Of a DNA stretch of 37,161 bases, positions 26,201-31,443 are shown piece by piece. The notes under the pieces were generated by a model that worked only from the letters and a program-made list of their open reading frames with translations, had not been told where the DNA came from and searched no databases. Each line of letters opens with the position of its first letter. Position 1 is the first letter of the stretch. The stretch spans positions 1 to 37,161 of the forward strand of contig CALIUY010000038.1 in assembly GCA_938048455.1 (NCBI GenBank). The letters run 5' to 3'. Source of the stretch: an uncultured Desulfobacterales bacterium (GTDB lineage Bacteria; Desulfobacterota; Desulfobacteria; Desulfobacterales; SpSt-501). The position numbers were made by a program, and so were the translations under genes.

Positions 26201-26992
26201 TCAGCCGTCCGGGTCCTCGATCAAGCGTTCCTTGCGCAGCTTGTTTCTCAGCCGCAGGATCGCCTGGGAGTGGATCTGCGAAACCCGGGACTCGGTGATG
26301 TTGAGGACCTTGCCGGTCTCCTTCATGGTCAGCTCTTCGAGGTGGTAAAGGGTGATGACGAGCTTTTCCTTTTCCGGCAGCTGCTCGATCGCCCGGGCCA
26401 GCGCCTCTTTCAATTCCTTGAGCCGGGTCCGGCTCAAGGCATCCTCGTCGTTTTGGAGGAGAAATTGGGTGAGCTTGTCCTTTTCCTCGCGCGAGGCGAC
26501 CCCGATCTCCTCGAAGCTGATGAAGGAGATCCCGGCCATCTGCCGCGTGCGGTGCAGCTCCTCGAGATCGACGCCCATCTCCGCGGCGACTTCCACGTCC
26601 TCGGGCTCGCGGCCCAGCCGCTGCTCGAGGCGCTGGCTGGCCATCTCCATCTCCCGCAGCTTGCGGCGCGAGGAGCGCGAGAGGTAATCCCGCGCCCGCA
26701 GCTCGCTCAAAATCGCGCCCTTGATGCGAAAGGCCGCGTAGGTCATGAACTTGTTGTCCCGCCGCGGATCGTAGCGGTCGACGGCCTGGATCAGGCCGAT
26801 CACCCCGACATTCATCAGATCCTCCAGCTCGACCGTGGACGGCAGATGGGCCGCGATCCGCTGGACGATTCGTTTGACGTAGGGCAGATATTCCCGGATC
26901 AGCTGCTCCCGGTAGGCGGAGCGTTTGCGCACCGCAGCCCGCGGCCTTCGTTCCTCCGCGGGCGCCGGCATGCCTGAAGTCGCGTAACGCAA
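26201..26992 (-). CDS. fliA: Flagellar sigma factor FliA (sigma28)
   Basis: Directs RNA polymerase to late flagellar and chemotaxis promoters. The 263-residue protein has region 2 (YLPYVKRIVQRIAAHLPSTV, LEDLMNVGVIGLIQAVDRYD, FMTYAAFRIKGAILSELRA), region 3 and region 4 (LPEKEKLVITLYHLEELTMK, VLNITESRVSQIHSQAI). The start used is TTG at 26992 because GGGGAGG stands five to six bases before it; the ATG at 26971 has no ribosome binding site. A rare start codon may limit FliA. Its expected antagonist FlgM is not found in the window. The predicted target promoter is at 20181-20208. Confidence 0.95.
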   Translation of the reverse strand: MRYATSGMPAPAEERRPRAAVRKRSAYREQLIREYLPYVKRIVQRIAAHLPSTVELEDLMNVGVIGLIQAVDRYDPRRDNKFMTYAAFRIKGAILSELRARDYLSRSSRRKLREMEMASQRLEQRLGREPEDVEVAAEMGVDLEELHRTRQMAGISFISFEEIGVASREEKDKLTQFLLQNDEDALSRTRLKELKEALARAIEQLPEKEKLVITLYHLEELTMKETGKVLNITESRVSQIHSQAILRLRNKLRKERLIEDPDG

Positions 26993-27004: not shown

Positions 27005-27904
27005 TCAGGGGTGATGGCTGCGCACCAGGTGGTGCCAGAAAAGATGGGTGTCTCCTTTCGGCCGGTGGGCGGGCGGACTGGCGATCAGCCGGCGGGCGAG
27101 ATCGGCGAAACACCTCCCGGCCCGGGAATCGGGGTAGAGTTCGCTGACCAGCCGCTGATGTTTCACGCCGCGGGCGAGCCGGTCGTCGCGCAGAATATGG
27201 CCCCAGTACTCGACACGGATGTCCAGGAAACGGGCGGTGACGAGCTCGAGCTGCCGGAACACCTCGCGGGCTTCCCGGGGGCTCGCCGCCAGATTGACGA
27301 GCAGCTTGCAGGACTTCTCCGCGTACTTGAGCGAAAGCACCTTCATCAGCGCGTAGGCATCGGTGATCGCGGTCGGCTCGGGGGAGACGACCACGACGAT
27401 CTCCTGAGCCATCACGCTGAAATCCATGACGTTCGAGGAGATCCCGGCCGCCGTGTCGATGAGCAGCAGGTCCACCCCGTCGATCAGGCGGTCGAGATCG
27501 GAGAAGAGCTGGAGCTTCTGCTCGGCGTTGAGGCGCGTGAGCTCCTGGATGCCGGAGGCCGCCGGCAGAATCTGCATGCGCCCCGGCCCCTCGGCAAGGA
27601 TGTCGGCGAGCATGCGCTCACCGCGGATGACATGCGAAATGTTCCAGCGCGGGGCGATCCCCAGAAGCACGTCCAGGTTGCCCAGCCCCAGGTCGGCATC
27701 GAGGATCATGACCTTCTTGCCCAGGCGGCTGAGCGTGAAGCCGAGGTTGGCGACGATATTCGTCTTGCCGACCCCCCCCTTGCCGCTGGTGACGGCCAGC
27801 ACCCGCGTGGCCGCACGTTCCCTTCGCGACGGGGGTTCCCCTTCTGCGCCGGTGCCTTCCCGGCGCGGCAGCGGAATCACCTTTCCGGAAACCCTCTGAC
27901 TCAT
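27005..27904 (-). CDS. flhG: Flagellar number regulator FlhG (MinD-like ATPase)
   Basis: MinD-family ATPase that works with FlhF to set flagellar number and place, often by restraining FlhF and the master activator. The 299-residue protein has a deviant Walker A motif GKGGVGKTN (41-49), DADLGLGNLDVLLG, the LLIDTAAG switch, and ends in a basic, His-rich helix that may contact the membrane. ATG at 27904 is chosen over a longer shadow frame. It lies 28 bases after flhF and 12 bases before fliA. Confidence 0.93.
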   Translation of the reverse strand: MSQRVSGKVIPLPRREGTGAEGEPPSRRERAATRVLAVTSGKGGVGKTNIVANLGFTLSRLGKKVMILDADLGLGNLDVLLGIAPRWNISHVIRGERMLADILAEGPGRMQILPAASGIQELTRLNAEQKLQLFSDLDRLIDGVDLLLIDTAAGISSNVMDFSVMAQEIVVVVSPEPTAITDAYALMKVLSLKYAEKSCKLLVNLAASPREAREVFRQLELVTARFLDIRVEYWGHILRDDRLARGVKHQRLVSELYPDSRAGRCFADLARRLIASPPAHRPKGDTHLFWHHLVRSHHP

Positions 27905-27932: not shown

Positions 27933-29303
27933 TCAGAGACGCACGGAGCAGCGCGGTCGCACGGGGGCGGCCGCCTCCTCTTGCCCGTCGGCGGCGACGC
28001 CGGCGGCGCTGATGCAGGTGCGGCAGGGCTGGAAGCCCTCGGCCTCGGCCGCCGCCGCCGATGGGAAACGACGCAGGTGTTCGGCCTTGATCCGCTGCGC
28101 CCACTTGCATCCCCGGCGATGGTAGAGCTCGGAGTTGGCGTTGGCGATGAACCACCCCTCCGCCGCGAACGCCGCATCGACCGCCGTCGCCTCCGGCGTT
28201 TCCCTCCCGACCGGCGAGGGCCAAAGCCTCGCGGTCAACCAGGCAAGGGGATGTTCCGCAAGGTCCTCGGGGATGCGCCTTCCCGTCCCGAGCCAGGAAA
28301 GCGGCAGGCGGCTCGACCGCGCCGCCCCGAGGATCGCTCCGGGAAAAGCGGTCTCATCGAGACGGGTGAAGGCCAGCGCGCGGACCTCCGGCGATGTCCA
28401 GTCGTCGAGCAGCCGGCCGCGATCGGCATCGCGCAACCCCGCCGGCACCACGAGATGAATCTCCCGGCAGTCGAGGGCGGAGAGCCGCCGCAAGGTTTCT
28501 TCCCGTCGTGCCTTCTCCGCGGGTCCGGCCCCGGCGGTGTCGATCAGCACCCAGTCGAGGTGCGACCAGCCTTGCAGCGTGGAAGCGGCTTCCTCCACCG
28601 AGCGCGCGGCGGCGAAGGGCACCCGGAGCGCGGCGGCGAAGGACCGAAGCTCGTCGGCTCCGCAGATGCGTCGGTCGTCCAAGCTGAGGAGCGCAACAAG
28701 CCGGCCCTGTTGCATCACCTCGCGCGCGGCGAGCTTGACCGCAAGCGTGGTCTTTCCCGCTCCGGGTCCGCCGACAAGAGCCGATCGACGCGGGCGGGCG
28801 TCGGCAACGGCGAACTCCGATATGCCCAGGGCCGCGAGGACCGACGCGGCGGATTCCCTCAGGCGCGTCGGGGATGCCTGCGGATCCCGGAGCGGGATCT
28901 GCGCGAGGCGTTCGACCCATTCGCCGGCGATTTCCGGCTCGACCCCACCGGCGATCAGACGGCGGCGGAAATCCTCGCCGAAACCCGCGCGGTCGGGGAC
29001 CGGGGCAGGGGGTTCCTCCGCCGCCTTGCGGCCGGCGAGCGCACGCAGGCGCGAGGACCAGGCGGGAAGCCTCCCCCGACGGGGAGCCTCGGTCGCGGCG
29101 GACACGGGAAGGGTCGACGAGGGCGGCCAGGCGACATCGACCGCGGCGGTCACCTCGACCCGGCTCGAGCGTCCGAAACCCAAGGCCGACCCGAACCGCC
29201 GCAGGCTCCGCGCCGACAGGATGACGGCATCGGGACCGAATTCCTCGCGGATCCGCCGCAAGGCCTCGGTCATCGTCGAAGCTTCAAATCGCTTCATGCG
29301 CAT
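27933..29303 (-). CDS. flhF: FlhF GTPase fused to a C-terminal Ada-like metal-binding module
   Basis: SRP-type GTPase that marks the site of flagellar assembly. The 456-residue protein has the FlhF N-terminus (MRMKRFEASTMTEALRRIRE), a basic linker, and an NG domain at about 110-362: P-loop GGPGAGKTT (178-186), LLSLDDRRICGADELR, LIDTAG (253-258), and FTRLDET (312-318) where FlhF usually has TKLDET. Residues 384-430 (GWFIANANSELYHRRGCKWA ... EGFQPCRTC) form a module like the zinc-binding domain of Ada in its H-C-C-C form: H395, C399, C427, C430. Ordinary FlhF ends before this. The start overlaps flhA by 20 bases. Confidence 0.93.
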   Translation of the reverse strand: MRMKRFEASTMTEALRRIREEFGPDAVILSARSLRRFGSALGFGRSSRVEVTAAVDVAWPPSSTLPVSAATEAPRRGRLPAWSSRLRALAGRKAAEEPPAPVPDRAGFGEDFRRRLIAGGVEPEIAGEWVERLAQIPLRDPQASPTRLRESAASVLAALGISEFAVADARPRRSALVGGPGAGKTTLAVKLAAREVMQQGRLVALLSLDDRRICGADELRSFAAALRVPFAAARSVEEAASTLQGWSHLDWVLIDTAGAGPAEKARREETLRRLSALDCREIHLVVPAGLRDADRGRLLDDWTSPEVRALAFTRLDETAFPGAILGAARSSRLPLSWLGTGRRIPEDLAEHPLAWLTARLWPSPVGRETPEATAVDAAFAAEGWFIANANSELYHRRGCKWAQRIKAEHLRRFPSAAAAEAEGFQPCRTCISAAGVAADGQEEAAAPVRPRCSVRL

Positions 29304-31395
29304 CGCTCAACTCCACCGACCCGATGGAACGGATCTCCACGCTGTTCAAGATCTCCTCGTAGGAGAGGACGGTCAGGTTGGGCATGAACCGGTCGACCAG
29401 GCGTTTGAACGCCAAGCGCACCGCCGCCGAAGCCAGCACGACCGGCTGCAGGTTGCGGGCCGCCGCGCGCTCGATCTGGCGCCCCAGGCTGCCCATCATC
29501 CGCCGGGCCGTTGTCGGGTCGATCGCCAGCACCCGCCCGGCCTCTCCGCGCTGCAGCGCCTCCAGGAGCGTCTGCTCCACATCGGCGCCGAGGGTGATGG
29601 CCGAGATCGTCCCCTCGGCCGAGGCGTGCAGCCGAGTGATCGTCCGCGCCAGCGCGCGGCGCACATGTTCGGTCAGAGCGTCGGTGTCCTTGGTCACGGA
29701 CGCCCAGTCGGCGAGCGCTTCCAGGATCTGCGGCAGATCGCGGATCGGCACCTGCTCGCGCAGCAGGTTTTGCAATACCTTCACCACCGCCCCCAGGGAG
29801 AGAAGATTGGGCATGAGCTCCTCGAGCACCTTGGGGTGGGACTGCCGCAGCGGGTCGAGCATCCGCTGCACTTCCTGGCGTCCGAGCAGCTCATGGGCGT
29901 GGCGCCGGATGGTCTCGGAGAAATGCGTCGTCAGCACCGTCACCGCATCGACGACGGTGAAGCCGCGGGAGACCGCCTCCTCCCGCGCGGATTCGCGGAT
30001 CCAGGTGGCGGGCAGGCCGTAGGTCGGCTCGCGCGTCGGGACCCCTTCGAGATCGCCCTCGGCACCGCCGGGGTTGAGCGCCAGGCAGAACTGCGGCATC
30101 AGCTCGGCGCGGGCAACTTCGTTGCCCTTGAGCAGAATCAGGTACTCGCCGGGGTTGAGCTGCATGTTGTCCTGGATGTGCACCGGAGGCAGCACGATCC
30201 CCAACTCGAGGGCGAGCTGGCGGCGGATCGCCTTGATGCGTTCGAGAAGCTCCCCGTTCTGACGGGCGTCGACGAAGGGGATCAACCCGTAGCCGACCTC
30301 GACCGCAAGCAGGTCGACCGGCGGCGGGGAAACGAAGCTTTCTGCAGCGGCGGAAGGCGCAGCCGCCTCCCGCTCCGCCTGTGCGGTGCGTTGCGCCGCT
30401 TTGCGCGCGGAGGCAAGCTTCCAGGCGAGCAGGCCCGAGACGGCGGAAAGGGCGAGGAAGGGCAGCGTCGGCAGACCCGGAACGAGAGCGAAACCGAAGA
30501 GCACGGCCGAAGCCATGCCGACCGGCCGGGGATGGAAGAGGACCTGCGCGGCCATCTCGCCTCCCAGGCTCGATTCGTTTCCCGCGCGGCTGACGACGAT
30601 GCCCGCCGCGGTGGAAATCACAAGAGCCGGAATCTGAGAGACCAGCCCGTCGCCCACGGTGAGGATGGTGTAGTTCTGGGCCGCCGCCCCGAAGCTCATG
30701 CCCTTCTGGAAGACCCCGATCGCGAGCCCGCCGAAAATGTTGATCAGCGTGATCAGCACTCCGGCCACGGCGTCCCCGCGGACGAACTTGTTGGCGCCGT
30801 CCATGGCCCCGTAGTACTCGGCCTCGCGCGCCAGGCGCTCGCGGCGCTCGCGGGCTTCCTGCTCGCTGATGAAGCCCGCGTTCAGGTCGGCGTCGATGCT
30901 CATTTGCTTGCCGGGCATGGCATCGAGCGTGAAGCGTGCGGCCACCTCGGCGATGCGTCCGGCGCCTTTGGTGATGACGGCGAAGTTGATGATGACGAGA
31001 ATGGCGAACACGATCAGGCCGACGACGGTGTTTCCGCCGACGACGAACCCCCCGAAGGACTTGATGATGTTCCCGGCGGCGGCGATCCCTTCGTTGCCGT
31101 TCAACAGGATCGCCCGCGTGGTGGCGATGTTCAGGGTCAACCGGAAAAGCGTCGCCAAAAGCAGCACCGAGGGAAAGACCGAAAACTCAAGCGGCCGCTG
31201 GACGTACATGGAGACGAGCAGGATCACGAGCGCGAGCGTAATGCTCAAGGCGAGCAGCAGATCGAGCGCCAAAGGCGGAAGGGGGATCACCATGAAGACG
31301 AGGATCCCGACGACGGCCGCACCGAGGGCGAAATCGGAGCCCTGCAGGAGCCGCGGGAAGATCGCGCCGGGGGGGGTCGCCTGAACTGCCGTCAT
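29284..31395 (-). CDS. flhA: Flagellar export gate protein FlhA
   Basis: Large export-gate component of the flagellar type III system that forms a nonameric ring and binds chaperone-cargo complexes. The product is 703 residues from ATG 31395 (MTAVQATPPGAIF), with GGAG about nine bases upstream; a GTG ten codons earlier is less likely. It has about eight transmembrane helices, the FHIPEP-region LATLFRLTLNIATTRAIL, the cytoplasmic loop DAMPGKQMSIDADLNAGFIS, and a large C-terminal cytoplasmic domain from about 330. First gene of its transcription unit. Confidence 0.97.
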   Translation of the reverse strand: MTAVQATPPGAIFPRLLQGSDFALGAAVVGILVFMVIPLPPLALDLLLALSITLALVILLVSMYVQRPLEFSVFPSVLLLATLFRLTLNIATTRAILLNGNEGIAAAGNIIKSFGGFVVGGNTVVGLIVFAILVIINFAVITKGAGRIAEVAARFTLDAMPGKQMSIDADLNAGFISEQEARERRERLAREAEYYGAMDGANKFVRGDAVAGVLITLINIFGGLAIGVFQKGMSFGAAAQNYTILTVGDGLVSQIPALVISTAAGIVVSRAGNESSLGGEMAAQVLFHPRPVGMASAVLFGFALVPGLPTLPFLALSAVSGLLAWKLASARKAAQRTAQAEREAAAPSAAAESFVSPPPVDLLAVEVGYGLIPFVDARQNGELLERIKAIRRQLALELGIVLPPVHIQDNMQLNPGEYLILLKGNEVARAELMPQFCLALNPGGAEGDLEGVPTREPTYGLPATWIRESAREEAVSRGFTVVDAVTVLTTHFSETIRRHAHELLGRQEVQRMLDPLRQSHPKVLEELMPNLLSLGAVVKVLQNLLREQVPIRDLPQILEALADWASVTKDTDALTEHVRRALARTITRLHASAEGTISAITLGADVEQTLLEALQRGEAGRVLAIDPTTARRMMGSLGRQIERAAARNLQPVVLASAAVRLAFKRLVDRFMPNLTVLSYEEILNSVEIRSIGSVELSDAHEAI

Positions 31396-31443
31396 GCACT
31401 CGTCTCCGCTTCGGATCACCGCCACACGTCAGGCCGTGGGTTG

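Follow-up and report, generated by a model that had tools for sequence, protein, structure and literature searches.

An Ada-like His-Cys3 module at the C-terminus of FlhF is a conserved trait of one clade of mostly Desulfobacterales

FlhF and FlhG determine the place and number of flagella in many bacteria. FlhF is composed of B, N, and G domains in the part of a review that describes it (PMC12826062), and its N-terminal region is called the FliG-interaction domain in the relevant section of PMC11236974. FlhG carries an N-terminal DQAxxLR motif that stimulates FlhF, with Gln as a co-catalytic residue, according to excerpts of PMC12826062, PMC11236974, and PMC12327844. As far as the excerpted text of PMC12826062 goes, the picture is that of one switch, in which the Gln of the FlhG N-terminal helix stimulates FlhF.

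The FlhF described here is encoded in a window of 37,161 nucleotides, the whole stretch of DNA analyzed, from an uncultured Desulfobacterales bacterium. The flhF gene (27933..29303, minus strand) is located between flhA and flhG; flhB and fliR precede these genes, and fliA follows them. On the same strand, flhA (29284..31425; TIGR01398, 880 bits) overlaps flhF by 20 bases, flhG (27005..27904, start at 27904) encodes a 299 aa MinD-like ATPase, and fliA is found at 26201..26992 (TIGR02479, 245.7 bits). The order flhA-flhF-flhG-fliA is the ordinary flagellar order. The flhF open reading frame (ORF) is uninterrupted from ATG to stop and encodes 456 aa, which Pfam, NCBIfam, and the NG fold identify as an FlhF-type SRP GTPase with a C-terminal Ada-like module. 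The frame is clean to the stop and the tail is in the same ORF as FlhF, as the initial annotation of this DNA had it.

The N-terminal part of the B domain, in the FliG-interaction domain region (residues 1-57; 29133..29303, minus strand), is folded in the structural model and can be aligned with relatives, so the B domain is present. The SRP54-type GTPase domain (residues 175-359; 28227..28781, minus strand) matches Pfam PF00448 with 76.5 bits against a cut-off of 22.7 (E 2.7e-21) and possesses P-loop, DTxG, and TKxD-type motifs. The best PDB structure match of the NG fold is 8r9r (Z 27.5, 3.6 A over 250 residues), and a second FlhF structure, 2px3, gives Z 25.7. The best family is the NCBIfam FlhF model TIGR03499, yet its 140.8 bits are below the curated cut-off of 174.15; this is therefore a divergent FlhF, placed by fold and operon. 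The tailed protein is a variant of FlhF and not a new kind of system.

The Ada-like His-Cys3 module occupies residues 378-430 (28014..28172, minus strand). Its predicted ligands are H395 (28119-28121), C399 (28107-28109), C427 (28023-28025), and C430 (28014-28016), the four residues named in the initial annotation. Pfam Ada_Zn_binding (PF02805) matches residues 378-430 with 25.1 bits (gathering cut-off 23, E 1.8e-5), which puts SRP54 and Ada_Zn_binding in one chain and bears out the claim of a His-first module fused in frame to FlhF. The module alone gives 28.5 bits (E 1.5e-6), and 39 of 40 FlhF tails match PF02805 at E <= 0.01. A profile of the 40 tails, searched against PDB sequences at E up to 1, retrieves four distinct sequences, all of them E. 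coli Ada, with E values from 1.3e-7 to 3.3e-7. The Ada-like match is above chance. The NCBIfam sunset domain NF051437 reaches 20.7 bits on the tail, below its curated cut-off of 27, and 6/40 tails match it at E <= 0.01.

In the tail-profile alignment, the His of the tails falls on the first Cys of Ada FCRPSC (Cys38, the methyl acceptor of Ada), and the other three ligands align. This acceptor Cys is replaced by His in the window FlhF and in 52/52 tails of the order. With His395 in its place, the tail is unable to carry out Ada-type methyl transfer or DNA repair.

The predicted fold agrees with the profiles. In the full-length model, the mean pLDDT per ten residues is 81-94 across 381-430, and the linker at 367-381 and the stretch from 441 to the end are disordered. 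The variable linker is annotated at residues 363-381 (28161..28217, minus strand), with pLDDT <50 at 367-381; across tailed FlhFs, the tether between GTPase and module is 14-47 residues long. Modeled alone, the tail adopts the same fold, and its first four Foldseek matches are entries of the Ada N-terminal domain (N-Ada; probability 1.00, E 0.012-0.057, none <0.001), after which nothing credible follows (E >= 5). VIA-align superposes the tail on 1u8b with Z 7.0 and 2.9 A over 60 residues, a match that is weak taken by itself. Sequence, predicted fold, and ligand pattern agree that the FlhF tail is an Ada-like module. The initial annotation had named a missing profile match and a disordered tail as signs against its reading; PF02805 scores above its cut-off, and the predicted tail is folded and N-Ada-like.

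Conservation is uneven along the protein. Mean pair identity in 39 tailed FlhFs, picked for tail possession, is 0.61 for residues 1-57 (the most conserved part), 0.45 for the module, 0.34 for the G domain, 0.15 for the N domain, 0.09 for the linker, and 0.08 for the C-terminal end. The module exceeds both the G and the N domain in identity, which indicates that it is under selection.

The distribution of the tail was followed across the phylum, with a scan of named records in addition. Each of the six genomes searched from the same genus encodes a tailed FlhF. In the order, 242 genomes were surveyed: the FlhF match extends into the tail in 52, and in another 78 it scores at least 200 bits but stops short of the tail, giving 130 same-order genomes with a clear FlhF. 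The 52 tailed proteins are spread across 15 family codes, and each one, on inspection, carries [YF]HxxxC-27-CxxC with a ligand spacing of 3-27-2. Their tail is in the FlhF frame in 52/52 cases, and a frameshift, an assembly error, or a neighboring gene is ruled out. One tailed FlhF (L012/L172, genome G014) has an in-frame TAG upstream of the tail, which may reflect a pseudogene, a sequencing error, or readthrough. In 297 genomes of the phylum searched with the tail profile, four tailed FlhFs are found outside the order, in two families (G505, G465, G486, and G397).

Of the best 80 of 515 confirmed named loci, 39 are tailed. According to these records, the clade belongs to Desulfobacterales and relatives, with named strains such as Desulfosarcina widdelii PP31 and Desulfatitalea alkaliphila M08but. 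The FlhF alignments A1-A4 are made up of tailed sequences only, chosen by profile and ligand pattern, and ligand invariance inside them is therefore partly by choice. A4 contains all 39 named tailed loci, and A3 contains 38 of them together with the window FlhF (L104 was left out because its trimmed sequence starts late).

Trees of FlhF were built on columns up to residue 350, that is, without the tail, and each places every tailed FlhF in one clade. A tree of 133 rows (duplicates and L104, L172, and L192 dropped) has 62 tailed and 9 tail-less members in this clade with SH-aLRT 99, and a tree of 81 rows has 43 tailed and 9 tail-less members with SH-aLRT 100. In a careful tree of 79 rows, from which L154 (a long branch) and L066 (a copy of L108) were dropped, the clade has 42 tailed and 8 tail-less members with support of 100/99, and it is present in 200/200 examined trees of a bootstrap that had not converged. 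Within the clade, the tail requires 7 changes of state (6-7 across the bootstrap trees), and well-supported branches carry at least 2 of these. This history is read as one gain and several losses, although change counts cannot separate gain from loss. Fusion of an Ada-like module to FlhF is a conserved trait of one clade, mostly Desulfobacterales, and the survey of relatives proposed in the initial annotation thus finds the tail conserved within one clade (52/130 same-order genomes with a clear FlhF).

A separate gene for the tail was not found in the seven tail-less clade genomes searched (G041, G058, G092, G104, G105, G138, and G185), an arrangement that the initial annotation had listed against its own reading. 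Six of the seven have a module match elsewhere, always on a staphylococcal-nuclease-like (SNase-like) ORF, and G185 has no module match at E <= 0.001. SNase-like module ORFs are present in tailed genomes too. Three tail-less clade FlhFs (L183, the same gene as L015, and L194 and L196) share another C-terminal stretch, like PEILAERMQAFEDQLE.

Related modules are found on several other kinds of protein. The occurrence of the His-first module on nucleases, mentioned in the initial annotation, is confirmed by SNase and Ada_Zn_binding in one protein and by more SNase-like ORFs. The genome of the window itself encodes an SNase-like ORF on contig C47 (L212:1052-1837, minus strand) with a degenerate module in which the final CxxC is short of one Cys. 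Small ORFs, 91-136 aa from stop to stop, consist almost entirely of a signal-peptide-like start and one Ada-like module (L069, L071-L074, L080, L081, L084, and L089), with several per genome in G295, G314, and G358. Two ORFs of 416-422 aa (L086:1468-2715 and L091:412-1677) combine what looks like a membrane segment with an Ada-like module at the C-terminus; the L086 ORF has no Pfam match at E <= 1e-4. NCBIfam also describes related sunset domains in variants of ribosomal proteins L17, L20, L4, and S2 (NF051437 and NF051448-NF051451), and no biology article under the name sunset domain was found among the open-licence articles searched.

The FlhG of the clade differs as well, a linked change on which the initial annotation is silent. 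The window FlhG has FleN 5j1j as its best PDB match (E 5.1e-67), and in NCBIfam it matches MinD-type models only, each under its own cut-off. It starts MSQRVSGKVIPLPRREG, without DQAxxLR; residues 8-15 (27860..27883, minus strand) read KVIPLPRR, the clade motif. In de-duplicated loci, a DQA-type motif is absent from all 76 clade FlhGs (0/67 with a tailed FlhF, 0/9 with a tail-less one), and a [VIL][IV]x[LIMF] motif is present in 66/67 and 9/9, respectively. The remaining FlhG, L066, has NVIVF further upstream of the P-loop, so that a VIx-type motif is found in 76/76. The commonest letters of the motif are [KN][VI]IxLxx[RK]xxx[KR]. Outside the clade, a DQA-type motif is present in 60/62 FlhGs, as DQA or, in Desulfobulbaceae-like records, as NQA/TQA; two have neither motif, and three (L023, L201, and L202) have a loose VIx match upstream of an intact DQA motif. 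Since the VIx motif is kept in all nine tail-less members, it is a marker of the clade rather than of the tail. The altered FlhG and the fusion characterize a single clade, and their link therefore rests on one evolutionary event. The FlhG partner of this FlhF is probably rewired. In a search of open-licence articles, no article was found that describes an Ada-like or zinc tail on FlhF, and none on the conserved VIx motif or its pairing with a metal tail, in a search not keyed on the motif itself.

Residues near the FlhF active site are also relaxed in the clade. T180 is kept in 21/62 and Q342 in 22/62 tailed FlhFs, and both are kept in 62/62 FlhFs outside the clade; this comparison set consists of the top matches to the search profile and same-order relatives and is not a random FlhF sample. 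These two are the most relaxed among several positions that are constant outside. Relaxation at T180, Q342, and other positions in the area of the active site fits a changed GTPase cycle in the clade. It is not significantly tied to the tail: at 33 outside-invariant G-domain positions, 0.83 are kept in tailed and 0.87 in tail-less clade members (p 0.17). The residue after DTxG is hydrophobic in 71/71 clade rows and R/Q/K/H in 58/62 outside rows; it was dropped as a clade-specific feature, as Shewanella putrefaciens FlhF has Met there.

We give a probability of about 0.5 to the reading in which FlhF and FlhG form a rewired switch and the FlhF tail is a tethered docking module stabilized by metal. 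An early fusion would have placed an Ada-like His-Cys3 metal-binding module, presumably with zinc as the metal, on the FlhF C-terminus in one Desulfobacterota clade. The module would be a small metal-stabilized domain on a flexible tether, and would most likely serve FlhF as an additional docking site, helping it to retain a partner at the pole or the nascent flagellum. The VIxLxxR segment of FlhG stands in the place of the DQAxxLR enhancer helix, and the FlhF GTPase may be triggered in another way. The modules on nucleases and on ORFs with signal-peptide-like starts suggest a structural role. Tail loss is tolerated within the clade, which counts against this reading, as do the modest Foldseek E values of the N-Ada matches.

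A broader version is put forward tentatively: the clade may have a second design of the FlhF-FlhG switch, with the enhancer helix given up, a VIxLxxR FlhG, a relaxed FlhF active site, and a metal tail that takes over a step. That step could be, e.g., partner capture or dimer control.

Binding of nucleic acid by the tail, in the manner of N-Ada, is an unlikely alternative that would anchor FlhF at the nucleoid or at flagellar promoters. DNA binding is possible because N-Ada binds DNA, having been solved with it (1u8b and 1zgw), and because the same module follows staphylococcal-nuclease domains; the predicted fold of the tail is that of N-Ada, and a CKWxxRIK-like basic strip is common. Against this, the tail core is weakly basic, with a mean net charge of +1.7 and a range of -3 to +6 in 39 tails.

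Two other roles for the tail are each improbable. The initial annotation had raised, beside an extra docking site, a metal- or thiol-sensing tail that responds to redox or metal state. In such a sensor, the His-Cys3 site would be oxidized or lose its metal, and the tail would unfold and switch FlhF, coupling flagellation to oxygen or metal state. His-Cys3 sites acting as redox switches occur in other proteins, and all 52 tailed FlhFs of the order retain the His and the three Cys; the same ligand set would be required by a purely structural site, however, and the module has no additional invariant Cys in the tailed FlhF alignment. The related modules on nucleases and on ORFs judged by eye to start like exported proteins also count against sensing. 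No result supports this part of the initial interpretation, of which the in-frame His-first fusion and its conservation in a clade hold and the extra docking site is retained as an inferred role. Equally doubtful, if elegant, is the idea that the tail binds the VIxLxxR segment of its own FlhG in replacement of the DQAxxLR contact; the two features mark the same clade and their genes are adjacent, but the nine tail-less clade members keep the FlhG motif, so mutual binding of tail and motif is not required.

Least probable is a passenger module gained by chance and retained without an important role, for which the several apparent tail losses and the sunset domains on ribosomal proteins, which imply that such additions are not rare, are outweighed by a module whose conservation exceeds that of the G and N domains and by constant ligand spacing in 52/52 tails.

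The tailed FlhF and its FlhG can be set beside systems already described. The solved FlhF NG structures (2px0/3syn and S. putrefaciens 8r9r) share with the window FlhF the B-N-G layout, the SRP-type GTPase fold, and a gene adjoining flhG. They differ in that the PDB match has no Ada-like tail, and the alignment stops at the end of the GTPase.

The E. coli Ada N-terminal domain (1adn, 1wpk, 1u8b, and 1zgw) shares its fold, ligand spacing, and flanks with the FlhF tail. In Ada, the first ligand is the acceptor Cys and the domain is on a methyltransferase, whereas in FlhF the first ligand is His and the Ada fold has been recruited by a cytoplasmic GTPase. The SNase-like proteins of the same phylum have the C-terminal His-first module as FlhF does, but on a nuclease; many have signal-peptide-like starts (judged by eye), in contrast to the cytoplasmic FlhF.

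Pseudomonas FleN is an FlhG homologue without DQAxxLR in the section of PMC12713375 that treats it. The clade FlhG likewise lacks DQAxxLR; unlike FleN, it carries a conserved motif at that position and is mostly paired with a tailed FlhF. The clade keeps FlhF and FlhG without the enhancer helix and mostly with a metal module, and so offers a natural experiment on which components of the switch are indispensable.
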